Positions 17,106 to 21,904 of a stretch of 64,000 bases of DNA are shown piece after piece. The stretch comes from Manis javanica (Eukaryota > Chordata > Mammalia > Pholidota > Manidae), in contig NC_133158.1 of NCBI RefSeq assembly GCF_040802235.1, positions 161,483,401 through 161,547,400 on the forward strand, in the 5' to 3' direction. Each line of letters begins with the position of its first letter. The first letter of the stretch is position 1. The translations under genes and the position numbers were made by a program. The notes beneath the pieces were generated by a model. That model worked only from the letters and a program-made list of their open reading frames with translations. It did not search any database and was not told the DNA's origin.

Positions 17106-17505
17106 GGGGGATTACTCCTTAACAGGATAAAACTATTGGTAAATCAAAGATCAACGCATGCTTTAAATATCCTTAATGTTGATCACTTAAAGGGTGTCAG
17201 ATGATCAGCTATGGAGGTACTCTTTTCTGATAATATTCCTTTCTCTTAATTAAAAAAAAAAAAAAAAAGCAGTTACTGTGTGCTGACCTCCAATGAGTTC
17301 TGCACAGTGGTATAGAGGGCATGTCAAAGTGTGGGCAAAGGGTCTGTTTGTTTCTACGCAGAAGATCAAGGCCTAGCTTGGATACCCAGAAAATGAACTA
17401 AGATACGATATGAGGAGGAGCTTCCGGCATCAGCACTCTCTGGAGGACTCGTGCCGGGGGATGATCATCAAAAAGCCTCCACAGGGATCCGGACGATGCT
17501 GCGGT

Positions 17506-17950
17506 TGTGGCTGCATCCAGCCCACCATCTCCTGGACTTGCCATAAGAAGGAGGAGGGAGATGTCTAGGCTGGCATGTGCATACAGTGAGACAACGAATT
17601 TGACTGTATCTGTACTGTTGGAACTCAACCAGGAGTTGGGAGGGGTGCAAGTTGTAGCACCCCAAAATCTCATGACTATAGACTATCTATGGTTAAAAGA
17701 ACATATGGGATGTGAACAGATCCCAGAAATGGGCTGCTTTAATTTGTCTGATGGTTCAAGTACAGTTGGAAAATATCCATCATATCATAGATAAATTTTC
17801 ACAAATGCCTAGGGTGCCTAAATGGTTTTCTTGGCTTCACTGGAGATGGCTGGTAATTATAGATTTGCTTTGTTTATGTCACCGTATTCCTATTATGTCA
17901 ATATGTGTGTGCAAATTAGTTAGTAGTTTAAAACCTATACATACTTAAGG
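17506..17950 (+). pseudogene. U1 retroviral envelope transmembrane-subunit remnant
   Basis: The translated segment aligns with the U2 and U3 copies. It shows a leucine- and glutamine-rich heptad region, then GCEQIPEMGC, where the C-x6-CC motif of retroviral TM subunits has lost its second-last cysteine. A tryptophan-rich stretch (WFSWLHWRW) follows, then a hydrophobic anchor. Frames are broken after 17794. It is a defective fragment without SU. Confidence 0.7.
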
Positions 17951-18595
17951 TACTATACAAGAAGATATGTCAAAGAAATAATCAATCCTCCCAAGTTTCC
18001 TTCATATGCTACATCTATAGCTTTTCTTCTTCCTTCCTAATTACAAACTTTAAATAGAATTCGTGCCTCATATCGAATTTACCGAGTATCATAATTCCTC
18101 CAGGTGGTAAAGATACCTCGAGACAAGTGCTGGGCATAGAAGCCACAGGGCATAAATCTGCAAAGAAGTAAAAAGCTAACCTTTGCAAACAATATGGCTT
18201 CTCTCTCACTTACCAACTTTACATTTCCCTGTATGGCCCCGGAAGATGACTGGTTAGCCAGAGACGGGTAAGATTCCTCAAGGGAGGAACAACCTAAGAC
18301 AGGCACAGTCGCAGGGGGGCCATCAGGTGAGAATTTGGGGATCAACAGAGGTGAGGCTCAGAACCTCACCCCCCCTGCTTTGAGAGAAATCTTCTGCATC
18401 CGTGGATGTCTTGCTGCCCTTGTCTAGCCTGGATTAATACTTAGTCCATAGGCACACACCTGATCATCTGATCATCTACATTTGCCTTCTTACAGCACTA
18501 AACTATGTTTTCTACCTTTATCTTGCATCTACCTACCACTTCAGCATTTTATTAAAAATAAAAATAATAATAATAATAGGAGAAATGTGGGATCA

Positions 18596-18908
18596 ACATA
18601 TAAATCAAGTACAAAAATCAAATGAATATTCATATTTGACCTGATGGTTTATAGGTCATATTGCATGATCAAAACCGAAAGTTTCTGTGATGACTGCCCT
18701 TGTACTGTTCACCATGTAAGAATTTATTCACTCTGTAAGAATTCGTTCACCATGTAAGAACTTGTTCGTTATGCTTCAGAAGATTGGAGACTGACGAGAA
18801 TTAGGCTTGAGATGGATTAATGATTGTACATTGAGCATTGACCCCCCTATACTGAATTTTATTGTTGTTAACAACCATTTGATCAATAAATATGAGAGAT
18901 GCCCTCTC
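18596..18908 (+). repeat. U1 LTR segment (TG start to poly(A) site)
   Basis: The LTR starts TGTGGGAT after the purine tract 'aggagaaa', which I take as a polypurine tract. It ends 23 bases after AATAAATATGAG at the 'gccctctc' poly(A) site. About 313 bp are present, read as U3 plus R without U5. Closely matching segments are 21326-21640 and 22948-23263. Confidence 0.65.
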
Positions 18909-18924
18909 AAAAAAAAAAAAAAAA

Positions 18925-18939
18925 AAAAAAGAAATACAG
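18925..18939 (+). repeat. Right target-site duplication of L1 C
   Basis: The string aaaaaagaaatacag is identical to 10182-10196. The poly(A) of the L1 C tail runs into it, so its left edge is arbitrary within the A tract, while gaaatacag is unambiguous. Confidence 0.92.
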
Positions 18940-19851
18940 ATGGCCAACAGACACATAAAAAGATGCTCCACATCACTAATTATCAGAGAAATGCAAATTA
19001 AAACAATGAGGTATCACCTTTCACCAGTAAGGATGGCTGCCATCCAAAAGACAAACAACAACAAATGTTGGCGAGACTGTGGAGAAAGGGGAACCCTCCT
19101 ACACTGCTGGTGGGAATGTAAATTAGTTTAACCATTGTGGGAAGCAGTATGGAGGTTCCTCAAAATGCTCAAAATAGACTTATCATTTGACCCAGGAATT
19201 CCACTCCTAGGAATTTACCCTAAGAACGCACCACTCAAGTTTGAAAATGACAGATGCACCCCTCTGTTTATCGCAGCACTATTTACAATAGCCAAGAATT
19301 GGAAGCAACCTAAGTGTCCATCAGTAGATGAATGGATAAAGAAGATGTGGTACACATACACAATGGAATATTACTCAGCCATAAGTAGAAAACAAATCCT
19401 ACCATTTGCAACAACATGGATGGAGCTAGAGGGTATTATGCTCAGTGAAATAAGCCAAGTGGAGAAAGAGAAATTCCAAATGATTTCACTCATCTGTAGA
19501 GTATAAGAACAAAGGAAAAAACTGAAGGAACAAAACAGCAGCAGAATCACAGAACCGAAGAATGGACTAACAGGTACCAAAGGGAAAGGGAATGGGGAGG
19601 ATGGGTGGGTAGGGAGGGATAAGGGGGGGAAGAAGGGGGTGTTATGATTAGCATGCATAATGGGGGTGGGTGAAAGGGGAGGGCTGTACGACACAGAGAA
19701 GACAAGTAGTGATTCTACAACATTTTGCTATGCTGATGGACAGTGACTGTAAAGGGGTTTGTGGGGGGGACCTGGCATAGGGGAGATCCTAGTAAATATA
19801 ATATTCTTCATGTAATTGTAGATTAATGATGACAAAAAAAAAGAAAGAAAA
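18940..19851 (+). pseudogene. L1 B continued: ORF2 C-terminus and 3' UTR
   Basis: This continues L1 B ORF2 after the L1 C insertion. It covers the region of the C-terminal knuckle (CWRDCGERGTLLHCWWEC, near 19065-19120) to the stop at 19506. A missing codon-scale base group near 19003 (AAAACAATGAGG against AAAACTACAATGAGG) and a TAA near 19132 break the frame. The G-rich 3' UTR and an A/GAAA stretch (19834-19851) lead into tail unit U2, the same arrangement as in L1 C. Confidence 0.9.
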
Positions 19852-20246
19852 GGGGGATTACTCCCTCATAGGATAAAACTAACTGTAAATCAATGATTAA
19901 TGCATGCTTTGGATATCCTTAATTTTGATCATTTAGAGGGTGTCAGATGATCAGCTGTGGAGGTACATTTTTCTGATAATATTCCTTTTTCTTAAAAAAA
20001 AAAAAAAAGCAGTGCCTGTGTGGTGACATCCAGTGGGTTCTTCACAATGGTATGAAGGGCGTATCAGGGTGTGGGCGAGGGGTCTGTTTGTGTTTATACA
20101 GAGGATCAAAGCCTGATTGGGCTACCTAGAAAACGATCTAAGATACGATGTGAAGAAAAGATTCCAACATCAACATACTCTGGAAGAGTCGTTCCAGAGG
20201 ATGATCATCAAAAAAGTTCAACAAAGATCCTGGCACTGTTGCAGTT

Positions 20247-20732
20247 GTGGCTGTGTTCATCCTGCCGGTTCCTGGAATTGCCATTGGAGTGAGGAAGGAG
20301 ATGTCTGGGCTGGCCTGTGCATGCGTTAGAACAACAAATTTGACTGGATCTATACTGTTGGAACTCAACCGAGAATTGGGAGAGGTGCGTGTTGCAGTGC
20401 TCCAAAATCTTGCAACTACAGACTATCTACTGTTAGGGCAACATGTGGGATGTGAGCAGTTCCCGGGAATGTGTTGTTTTAGTTTGTCTGATTTTTCTCA
20501 AACTATTCAAATTCAGTTGGACAATATCCATCATATCATAGATAAGTTTTCGCAAATGCCTACTGTGCCTATCTGGTTTTCTTGGTTTCACTGGAGGTGG
20601 CTGGTAGTTGTGCGTCTGCTTTGGTTATGTGACTGTGTTCCTATTATGTTGGTGTGTGTGCACAATTTAATTATTAGTTTAAAACCTATACATGCTCAAG
20701 TTAATCTACAAGAAGATATGTCAAAGAAATAA
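20247..20732 (+). pseudogene. U2 retroviral envelope TM subunit remnant, longest copy
   Basis: This 161-codon open stretch resembles a retroviral TM subunit. It has a hydrophobic fusion-peptide-like start, a heptad region, a relative of the immunosuppressive-like region, and the motif C-x6-CC at 20451-20477 (CEQFPGMCC). A tryptophan-rich membrane-proximal stretch, a hydrophobic anchor and a short cytoplasmic tail ending at TAA 20730 follow. C-x6-CC is typical of gamma- and type-D-like envelopes. The surface subunit is absent, so the fragment could not act as an envelope. Confidence 0.72.
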
Positions 20733-21325
20733 TCAATCTTCCCATGTTTTCTTCTGTCTGCTACTTCTATAGCTTTTCTTCTTCCTTCCTAATTACAACC
20801 CTTAAATAGAATTCGTGCCTCATATCGAATTTACTGAGTATCATAATTCCTCCAGGTGGTAAAGATACCTCGAGACAAGTGCTGGGCATAGAAGCCACAG
20901 GGCATAAATCTGCAAAGAAGTAAAAAGCTAACCTTTTCAAACAATATGGCTTCTCTCTCACTTACCAACTTTACATTTCCCTGAATGGTCCCAGAAGATG
21001 ACTGGTTAGCCAGAGACGGATAAGATTCCTCAAGGGAGGAACAACCTAAGAGAGGCACAGTTGCAGGGGGGCCATCAGGTGAGAAATTGGGGATCAACAG
21101 AGGTGAGGCTAAGAACCTCACCCCCCCTATATTGAGAGAAATCTTCTGCATCCGTGGATGTTTTGTTGCCCTTCTCTAGCTTGGATTAATACTTAGTCTA
21201 TAGGCGCACACTTGATCATCTACATTTGCTCTCTTACAGCACTAAACTATGTTTTCTACCTTTATCTTGCATCTACCTACCACTTCAGCATTTTATTAAA
21301 AATAATAATAATAATAAGGGAGAAA

Positions 21326-21640
21326 TGTGGGATTCACATATAAATCAAGTATAAAAATCAAACAAATATTCATATTTGACCTGATTGTTTAGAGTTCATA
21401 ATGCATGATCAAAACCAAAAGTTTCTGTGATGACTGCCCTTGTACTGTTCACCATGTAAGAACTTATTCACTATGTAAGAATTTGTTCACCATGTAAGAA
21501 CTTGTTCGTTATGCTTCAGATGATTGGAGGCTGTTGAGAATTAGGCTTGGGGTTGATTAATGATTGTGCACTGAGCCCCTATACAGAATTTTATTGTTGT
21601 TAACAACCATTTGATCAATAAATATGAGAGATGCCCTCTC
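21326..21640 (+). repeat. U2 LTR segment
   Basis: It starts TGTGGGATTCAC after 'aagggagaaa' and ends at the poly(A) site 19 bases after AATAAA (21617-21622). It matches the U3 copy more closely than U1, for example in the shared GATTCACATATAAATC. Confidence 0.65.
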
Positions 21641-21904
21641 AAAAAAAAAAAAGGCAGTTCCTGTGTGGTAATCTCCAATAAGTTCTTCAAAATGGTATAA
21701 AGGTCATATCAAAGTGTGGGCAAAGGGTTTGTTTGTGTTTATACAGAGGATCAAAGCCTAATTTGGCTACCCAGAAAACGAATTAAGATATGATATGAAG
21801 AAGAACTTCCAACATCAACATTCTCTGGAAGTCATTCCAGAAGATGATCATCAAAAAACTTCAGCAAAGATCCTGGCGCTGTTGCAGTTGTAGCTGCATT
21901 AATC

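Follow-up and report, generated by a model that had tools for sequence, protein, structure and literature searches.

When L1 (LINE-1) RNA passes its own end, it carries flanking DNA into the new copy, within the target duplication, and such 3' transductions usually serve to tag a lineage, with one or a few copies each. In SVA elements, a piece of retroviral env and long terminal repeat (LTR) forms the 3' end, which stops at the LTR's poly(A) site. Here we describe a 64,000-nucleotide stretch of the genome of the pangolin Manis javanica (NC_133158.1, positions 161,483,401 to 161,547,400, forward strand; hereafter the window), in which a full-length L1 ends in 1.8 kb of retroviral env and LTR sequence. 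We propose, with a probability of roughly 0.93, that an L1 lineage took the 3' part of a provirus (an env remnant and the U3 and R regions of the LTR) as its own 3' end and that it spreads with this tail as one 8.7-kb unit.

The pangolin composite resembles the SVA (SINE-R-VNTR-Alu) elements of hominids in that its 3' env/LTR piece stops at the LTR's poly(A) point; the U5 region that would lie beyond this point is present in a solo LTR described below. SVA and the LAVA elements of gibbons are mobilised in trans by L1 proteins, according to the available part of PMC7353768. However, SVA and LAVA are non-autonomous, whereas the pangolin's retroviral piece sits on a full-length L1 with both open reading frames (ORFs), so the composite is not an SVA-like element in the sense of a non-autonomous one that lacks the L1 ORFs. 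A family of L1 transductions is the subject of PMC6425141 (in the part available). As in L1 3' transduction families, the piece carried by the pangolin L1 lies inside the target duplication, but it is retroviral, it supplies the terminal AATAAA, and it is found on copies that number in the thousands and differ in age. Finally, chimeric L1/LTR sequences may arise by template switching or by transduction (PMC6500023, available part). The chimera in that part of the paper is a built construct of partial ORF2 and a MaLR LTR and, unlike the pangolin L1, it is not a replicating family.

In the accessible parts of the open-access literature on L1 and retroviruses, we met no L1 family described as ending in retroviral sequence, and the accessible literature on L1, retroviruses, and editing likewise gave no description of an L1 family founded by edited RNA. 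Some repeat library may already list the pangolin family, under a name of its own. As for pangolins, PMC4643047 concerns a gammaretroviral endogenous retrovirus, and the term LINE-1 has no match in its available text; PMC5020319 gives repeat totals for pangolin transcripts, and its available part mentions no such L1 family.

Two nested L1s with the same retroviral tail

The window contains two L1s on the + strand, one inside the other. Eight SINE motifs other than MIR were also looked for, with up to 4 mismatches allowed, and none is present. The inner L1 (10197..17080) is full length, with a 5' untranslated region (UTR), ORF1, ORF2, and a 3' UTR. ORF1 (11799..12722, 307 amino acids) is open and has the RRM and dsRBD domains expected of LINE-1 (Pfam PF02994, E = 2.5e-25; PF17490, E = 3.7e-20). 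ORF2 (12918..16733, 1271 amino acids) is also open and encodes endonuclease and reverse transcriptase (PF00078, E = 1.2e-46; PF03372, E = 1e-23). The 5' UTR includes tandem repeats of about 210 bp at 10449-11341. A 15-bp target-site duplication, AAAAAAGAAATACAG, is present at 10182..10196 and again, exactly, at 18925..18939. It brackets the inner L1 together with its complete tail, which makes them a single 8.7-kb insertion; that the tail lies inside the duplication had already been noted in a sequence-only reading of the window.

The inner L1 sits within the outer one, which it splits into a 5' part (4870..10195, with an approximate 5' end) and a 3' part (18940..19840). The sequence-only reading had placed an L1 before the second tail. 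There is an L1 3' end at this place, but it does not belong to a further L1: 18940-19840 is the interrupted outer element. That the same 1.8-kb sequence follows both L1s at the same junction does hold. From ORF2 and the 3' UTR into the tail, 16158-18920 and 18925-21652 are 87.1% identical over 2,778 alignment columns, and in both copies the L1 gives way to the tail at the identical point, a run of Gs past the A/G-rich L1 end (17106 and 19852). The outer tail (19852..21640) has its AATAAA at 21617-21622 and its poly(A) at 21641-21652. However, there is more than one tail unit on the outer L1, as a second env-LTR unit of about 1.6 kb with its own poly(A) follows directly (21653..23263). This second unit contains no L1 and lacks the first 150 bp of the tail; it begins at the point of an internal A-run.

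Within the inner tail, the first 150 bp (17106..17255) are perhaps a C-terminal remnant of integrase. This identity is only a reading of the frames because a Pfam search with a 32-amino-acid piece gave no match. Next comes the internal A-run (17256..17273), which is equivalent to the start of the outer tail's second unit. The env piece (17274..17945), whose start may still belong to the integrase end, is a remnant of the transmembrane subunit (TM) and carries the clustered A>G changes discussed below. Its identity is known via the outer copy, where an open frame of 161 amino acids (20247..20732) matches the ASLV envelope TM in PDB (4jpr, E = 4.9e-12) and has no match in Pfam. ASLV is of the alpharetrovirus type, but the pangolin env is a remnant only and its likeness to an alpharetrovirus TM does not fix the class of the donor. 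For this mammalian element, the closest PDB entry to its env TM remnant is the TM of an avian virus. A non-coding stretch that ends in an A-rich tract (17946..18580) leads to the LTR (18586..18908), which comprises U3 and R without U5. The poly(A) of the inner composite follows (18909..18924; its end is ambiguous with As of the duplication).

The LTR's AATAAA (18885-18890) lies 18 nucleotides before the poly(A). In contrast, the L1's own end has neither AATAAA nor ATTAAA in the outer copy and only ATTAAA in the inner one. Transcription must continue beyond the end of the L1 itself, and living RNA of this L1 presumably uses the LTR's signal. The tail stops exactly where U5 begins, as can be seen in a complete solo LTR on contig C5 (L044, at 43754845). 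This LTR lies inside an L1, has TG...CA ends, and lies between two copies of GAGGG, a 5-bp duplication (a sixth base also matches but could equally be the last one of the LTR). It continues with about 115 bp of U5 exactly past the end point of the L1 tail. With gaps counted, the U3-R of this LTR is 77-80% identical to the tails in the window, and without them it is 13-17% different. It is a solo LTR of the donor family. The description of the tail in the sequence-only reading, as an env TM remnant plus an LTR that ends in poly(A), is confirmed. On contigs C11 (70187195) and C20 (4312133), the sequence past the tail end is nearly the same as the solo LTR's 8 bases there.

Copies across the genome

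We searched the 2.56-Gb assembly (63 contigs; the window is on C3) with the inner tail, scored the best 40 of 190 candidates, and took the best 20 matches, including the window's own copy (L010), together with about 7 kb upstream. An L1 precedes the tail in all 20. Apart from L010 itself, their main alignments are 95.3-99.9% identical to the window and extend for up to 8.7 kb. In L027 there is a further piece, at 93.7% identity, and L028 is a mixed copy (see below). In 18 of the 20 copies, a direct repeat of 10-18 bp, without mismatches, flanks the composite at the 5' end of the L1 and past the poly(A) of the tail. As a control, we mispaired the flanks: a repeat of at least 10 bp turns up in only 9 of 380 such pairs and one of at least 12 bp in 1 of them, whereas 17 of the 20 own pairs have a duplication of at least 12 bp. 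(Part of the duplications are A-rich, as in L012.) These 18 copies have the target-site duplication and 3' poly(A) of LINE-1 insertions, and, as in a 3' transduction, sequence that is not L1 lies at the 3' end within the L1's duplication and ends in poly(A). Both ORFs are open in 8 of the 20 (ORF1 of 296-307 amino acids and ORF2 of 1271). None of this describes an endogenous retrovirus, with two LTRs that include U5, gag-pol-env, and retroviral integration: the tails in the window have no U5, and all 20 copies are on L1s. Two of the copies, L018 and L019, are missing the part of the L1 5' UTR that is equivalent to about 10370-11410 of the window, and L027 (on C14) has about 60 bp of extra sequence between the poly(A) and the duplication, which is possibly a second 3' transduction.

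We also searched in the converse direction, with the inner ORF2. The best 40 of 1,235 candidates, which were the ones scored, are all 99-100% identical to it. Only 4 of these 40 (the window copy included) are shared with the scored tail matches, which raised the worry that the other 36, among the youngest L1 bodies, lack the tail. Of these 36, we examined 7, and all of them carry it, so it is the list of scored tail matches that is incomplete. Six of the seven continue to the tail end, and one (L050) to the equivalent of 18568, so that its LTR is missing. The A-rich tract that precedes the LTR is where the tail of L050 breaks off and the next L1 starts. Overall, the tail is present, if only partly in L050, in all 11 examined of the best 40 ORF2 matches.

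Three copies that were picked by the tail alone (L029, L030, and L031) and one that was picked by the start of the tail (L032) also adjoin an L1 3' end. (The older tails, L033-L039, do so by construction, as they were drawn from the list of junctions.) An apparent class of shorter tails that end at tail position ~1347 is a search artefact, at least for L029 and L030, the two that we examined, as both have the full tail.

Exact strings indicate how common the composite is, although such counts miss mutated copies and may take in duplicated DNA. An 18-base string at the start of the tail has 9,362 exact matches in the genome (1 for the reverse-read control), the L1/tail junction of one L1 type has 3,200 (control, 0), and the tail end followed by AAAA has 18,980 (control, 0). 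The 3' ends of L1s of the outer type have 9,145 matches. In the part of C1 that was listed (98 of 100 tail ends, and 76 tail starts up to 10.82 Mb), an exact tail start lies upstream of 48 of the 98 ends, in 41 cases at a distance of 1.76-1.82 kb, and an exact tail end lies downstream of 45 of the 76 starts. The copies are on many contigs, with distinct flanks and distinct duplications.

By comparison with the 18,980 tail ends that run into AAAA, 192 exact tail ends have a base other than A next. As so few continue in this way, the vast majority of exact tail ends appear to derive from RNA. We do not read the 192 as true LTRs: in the two that we examined, a single substitution precedes ordinary poly(A). 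Three positions past the tail end were also fixed as non-A in a pattern that would miss some other non-A continuations; it occurs at 6 places. We examined three of these. One, L044, is the solo LTR, and the other two (L042 and L043) are ordinary tails that lack poly(A) and run on into other DNA or TA repeats.

Given the L1-borne copies, their duplications, and the thousands of exact matches, the sequences lead us to conclude that the L1s with a retroviral 3' end form an abundant and autonomous family, with thousands of copies of differing ages, and that they do not reflect a one-off transduction. The proposal of an L1-retrovirus composite family was therefore correct, and the individual target duplications of many L1-joined copies, by which it was to be established, are there. 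It had also been suggested that the tail was transmitted across two generations in the window, from one L1 to its offspring. This does not stand: the inner and outer L1 bodies are 92.9% identical over 4,953 bp, and with about 7% divergence they are relatives rather than parent and child, members of an abundant family with copies of different ages. The closest copies of the inner L1 elsewhere are 99.9% identical to it over about 8.7 kb. A difference of 0.1% corresponds to about 0.2 million years at 2.2e-9 substitutions per year, which is the rate that was applied to pangolin in the available part of PMC4643047. The 99.9% identity over 8.7 kb and the open ORFs suggest that the family may be active at present, and many of its copies are probably truncated at the 5' end.

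Here, the carried piece has become the standard 3' end of a whole family, with a retroviral poly(A) signal, on a protein-coding element. An LTR can reach thousands of sites in this way without retroviral integration, and counts of retroviral copies in pangolins would be complicated by L1-borne tails. The family is also a natural record for testing what an L1 3' end requires.

Origin of the composite

What the L1 acquired would be a sense-strand env remnant and the U3-R of the 3' LTR, probably preceded by an end of pol. In the likeliest course of events, a defective provirus received an L1 insertion, within it or immediately upstream, in matching orientation. The RNA of this L1 would have read through its own weak end and been cleaved at the LTR's poly(A) signal, and once this read-through RNA was retrotransposed, the composite would have turned into the reproducing form. 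Since then, transcription of the L1, target-primed reverse transcription at the poly(A) of the tail, and insertion would have multiplied the L1 and its tail together, as a unit of 8.7 kb. We infer a single joining event of this kind.

Several observations weigh against this account. First, no founder locus or source locus with unique flanks, and no complete donor provirus, was found among the copies examined, although the sequence-only reading had proposed a count of tail copies flanked by a complete provirus and a way to the source locus. Second, we looked for a target duplication of the outer L1 and recognised none, and no exact duplication was found for L013 and L022 among the 20 copies. 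Third, on the listed part of C1, the other 50 of the 98 tail ends are truncated, mutated, or separate, and an exact tail start is present on only 5 of 43 outer-type L1 3' ends, so many L1s of the outer type seem to be without the tail. Finally, there is little sign of function in the tail itself: its RNA fold has a z-score of only -1.3 (2 of 20 shuffles are equally stable), and there is no clear purifying selection on it in recent copies. We rejected a conserved RNA element in the tail in view of this z-score and of Rfam scans, which found no family at gathering score in the window and, within the tail, one match at chance level (snoZ6, 15.6 bits versus a cut-off of 35).

An alternative to read-through begins with the L1's reverse transcriptase on a retroviral RNA: having copied the 3' part of this RNA, it would have jumped to the poly(A) of an L1 RNA, and the resulting chimera would have become the source element. 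From then on, the composite would behave exactly as we propose. The A-rich L1 end does directly adjoin the retroviral piece, and template switching or recombination does occur here: L028 (on C9) is an outer-like L1 up to the equivalent of about 17157 and then has an inner-type tail, so tails recombine. None of the present sequence evidence distinguishes the two origins. Nevertheless, we consider the template switch a possible but rather doubtful origin, as read-through of an L1 in a provirus yields the identical junction in one ordinary step.

A second alternative is that the tail is an independent, non-autonomous element, similar to SINE-R, which is mobilised by L1 on its own and often lands in the A-tails of L1s. 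The unit at 21653-23263, which is not joined to an L1 and starts at the internal A-run, could be such an element, as could the 50 tail ends on C1 without an exact tail start upstream, and the recombinant tail of L028 would also fit. This seems very unlikely because one duplication surrounds L1 and tail together in 18 of the 20 best copies, because one exact junction occurs 3,200 times, and because the tail is on all 11 young L1 bodies examined. In the account that we prefer, tandem units would arise by slippage of reverse transcription between the tail's A-rich tracts and the poly(A). The second outer unit, with its start at the internal A-run, would be one such case. In L031 (C1:2241500-2244700), the LTR is present three times, and each repeat begins at the A-rich tract before the LTR. 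Pairs of tail ends that are 370-657 bp apart are also listed on C1.

Third, segmental or tandem duplication of one L1-retrovirus locus can practically be dismissed: local duplication probably does occur, given the spacing of three L1 bodies on C6 that are ~100% identical to the inner ORF2 and 8.38 kb apart (69596669, 69605052, and 69613437), but the copies are on many contigs with different flanks, and the 18 copies with their own duplications contradict it, just as they contradict a tail that inserts separately.

A-to-G clusters in the env piece

Between the inner and outer tails, divergence per 100 bases is 12-28% in most of env and 1-10% in the rest, mostly 3-10%. This suggested purifying selection on the post-env stretch and the LTR. 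We dropped this idea because in recent copies the rates of private changes are similar and those of shared changes differ only mildly (private/shared changes were 68/22 over 672 sites in env, 57/14 over 635 sites in post-env, and 38/9 over 320 sites in the LTR) and because, among the old tails, it was just the env of the inner and outer ones that was conspicuous.

Both env pieces have dense, strand-specific A>G changes, at about 20010-20700 in the outer tail and at 17300-17645 in the inner one. As a reference, we used six older tails (L033-L036, L038, and L039) and skipped columns with fewer than 5 readable references or more than 1 dissenter. (L037 was left out as a near-duplicate of L036, from which it differs by 1.0% in env and 1.9% in post-env and LTR, and the second outer unit was not part of the reference.) Relative to this reference, A>G makes up 44 of 79 env changes in the outer tail and 35 of 66 in the inner type, while T>C accounts for only 2 and 8. 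The proportion of A>G is 6 of 18 (outer) and 5 of 18 (inner) in the post-env stretch, 1 of 9 and 0 of 9 in the LTR, and 5 of 43 in the env of the second outer unit. If each tail is left out in turn, env A>G is 42 of 63 for the outer tail and 34 of 66 for the inner one, versus 1-7 of 15-24 for the other seven tails.

The double-stranded RNA editor ADAR avoids a 5' G next to the edited A. The changed As rarely follow a G (1 of 41 versus 37 of 144, P = 4e-4, and 2 of 36 versus 35 of 152, P = 0.019), so strand-specific A>G clusters and 5' G avoidance, the signature of ADAR hyperediting, are both present. We suggest that at least two tail RNAs were hyperedited from adenosine to inosine before reverse transcription and that the young subfamily to which the inner L1 belongs probably descends from one of them. 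The direction A>G is firm for the outer copy because a 23-base motif of the outer burst has a single exact match in the genome (near matches were not sought) and the other examined tails have A at these sites. For the inner type, A>G is the likely direction. A motif of the inner burst has 7,110 exact matches, versus 1,438 for the corresponding unedited motif, and copies of the inner type do not continue the excess (8 private A>G and 15 private G>A in env). In a tree rooted with the solo LTR, which is weakly supported, the inner type is not at the base.

Alternatively, the env cluster could reflect G>A hypermutation by APOBEC3 in other lineages or the ordinary divergence of different donor proviruses. 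The direction in the inner type does rest on six older tails, and a G follows somewhat more often at A/G sites (22 of 66) than at G sites that are constant (19 of 87; P = 0.14). We consider this unlikely. There is no enrichment of a GA/GG context like that of APOBEC (P = 0.33; P = 0.14 for GG alone), a 5' G is avoided, and the outer motif is unique, with A at those sites in other tails. Also, the post-env and LTR sequences of these two tails are ordinary, and the inner and outer A>G sites overlap as by chance (9 sites, versus 8.0 expected). Finally, variable env sites are spread over all three codon positions (31, 38, and 42 of 146 each; 17, 16, and 26 for A/G sites).

We lean, with some reserve, towards hyperediting as part of the fuller account. 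In it, an autonomous mammalian L1 gave up its own 3' terminus for one of retroviral env and LTR sequence and flourished, and one L1 transcript, hyperedited by ADAR within the retroviral piece, would have given rise to a large subfamily of young copies. If the clusters are true editing, they are a fossil record of RNA editing that entered the germline via L1, and what began as RNA editing would now be inherited as a mark by thousands of genomic copies.

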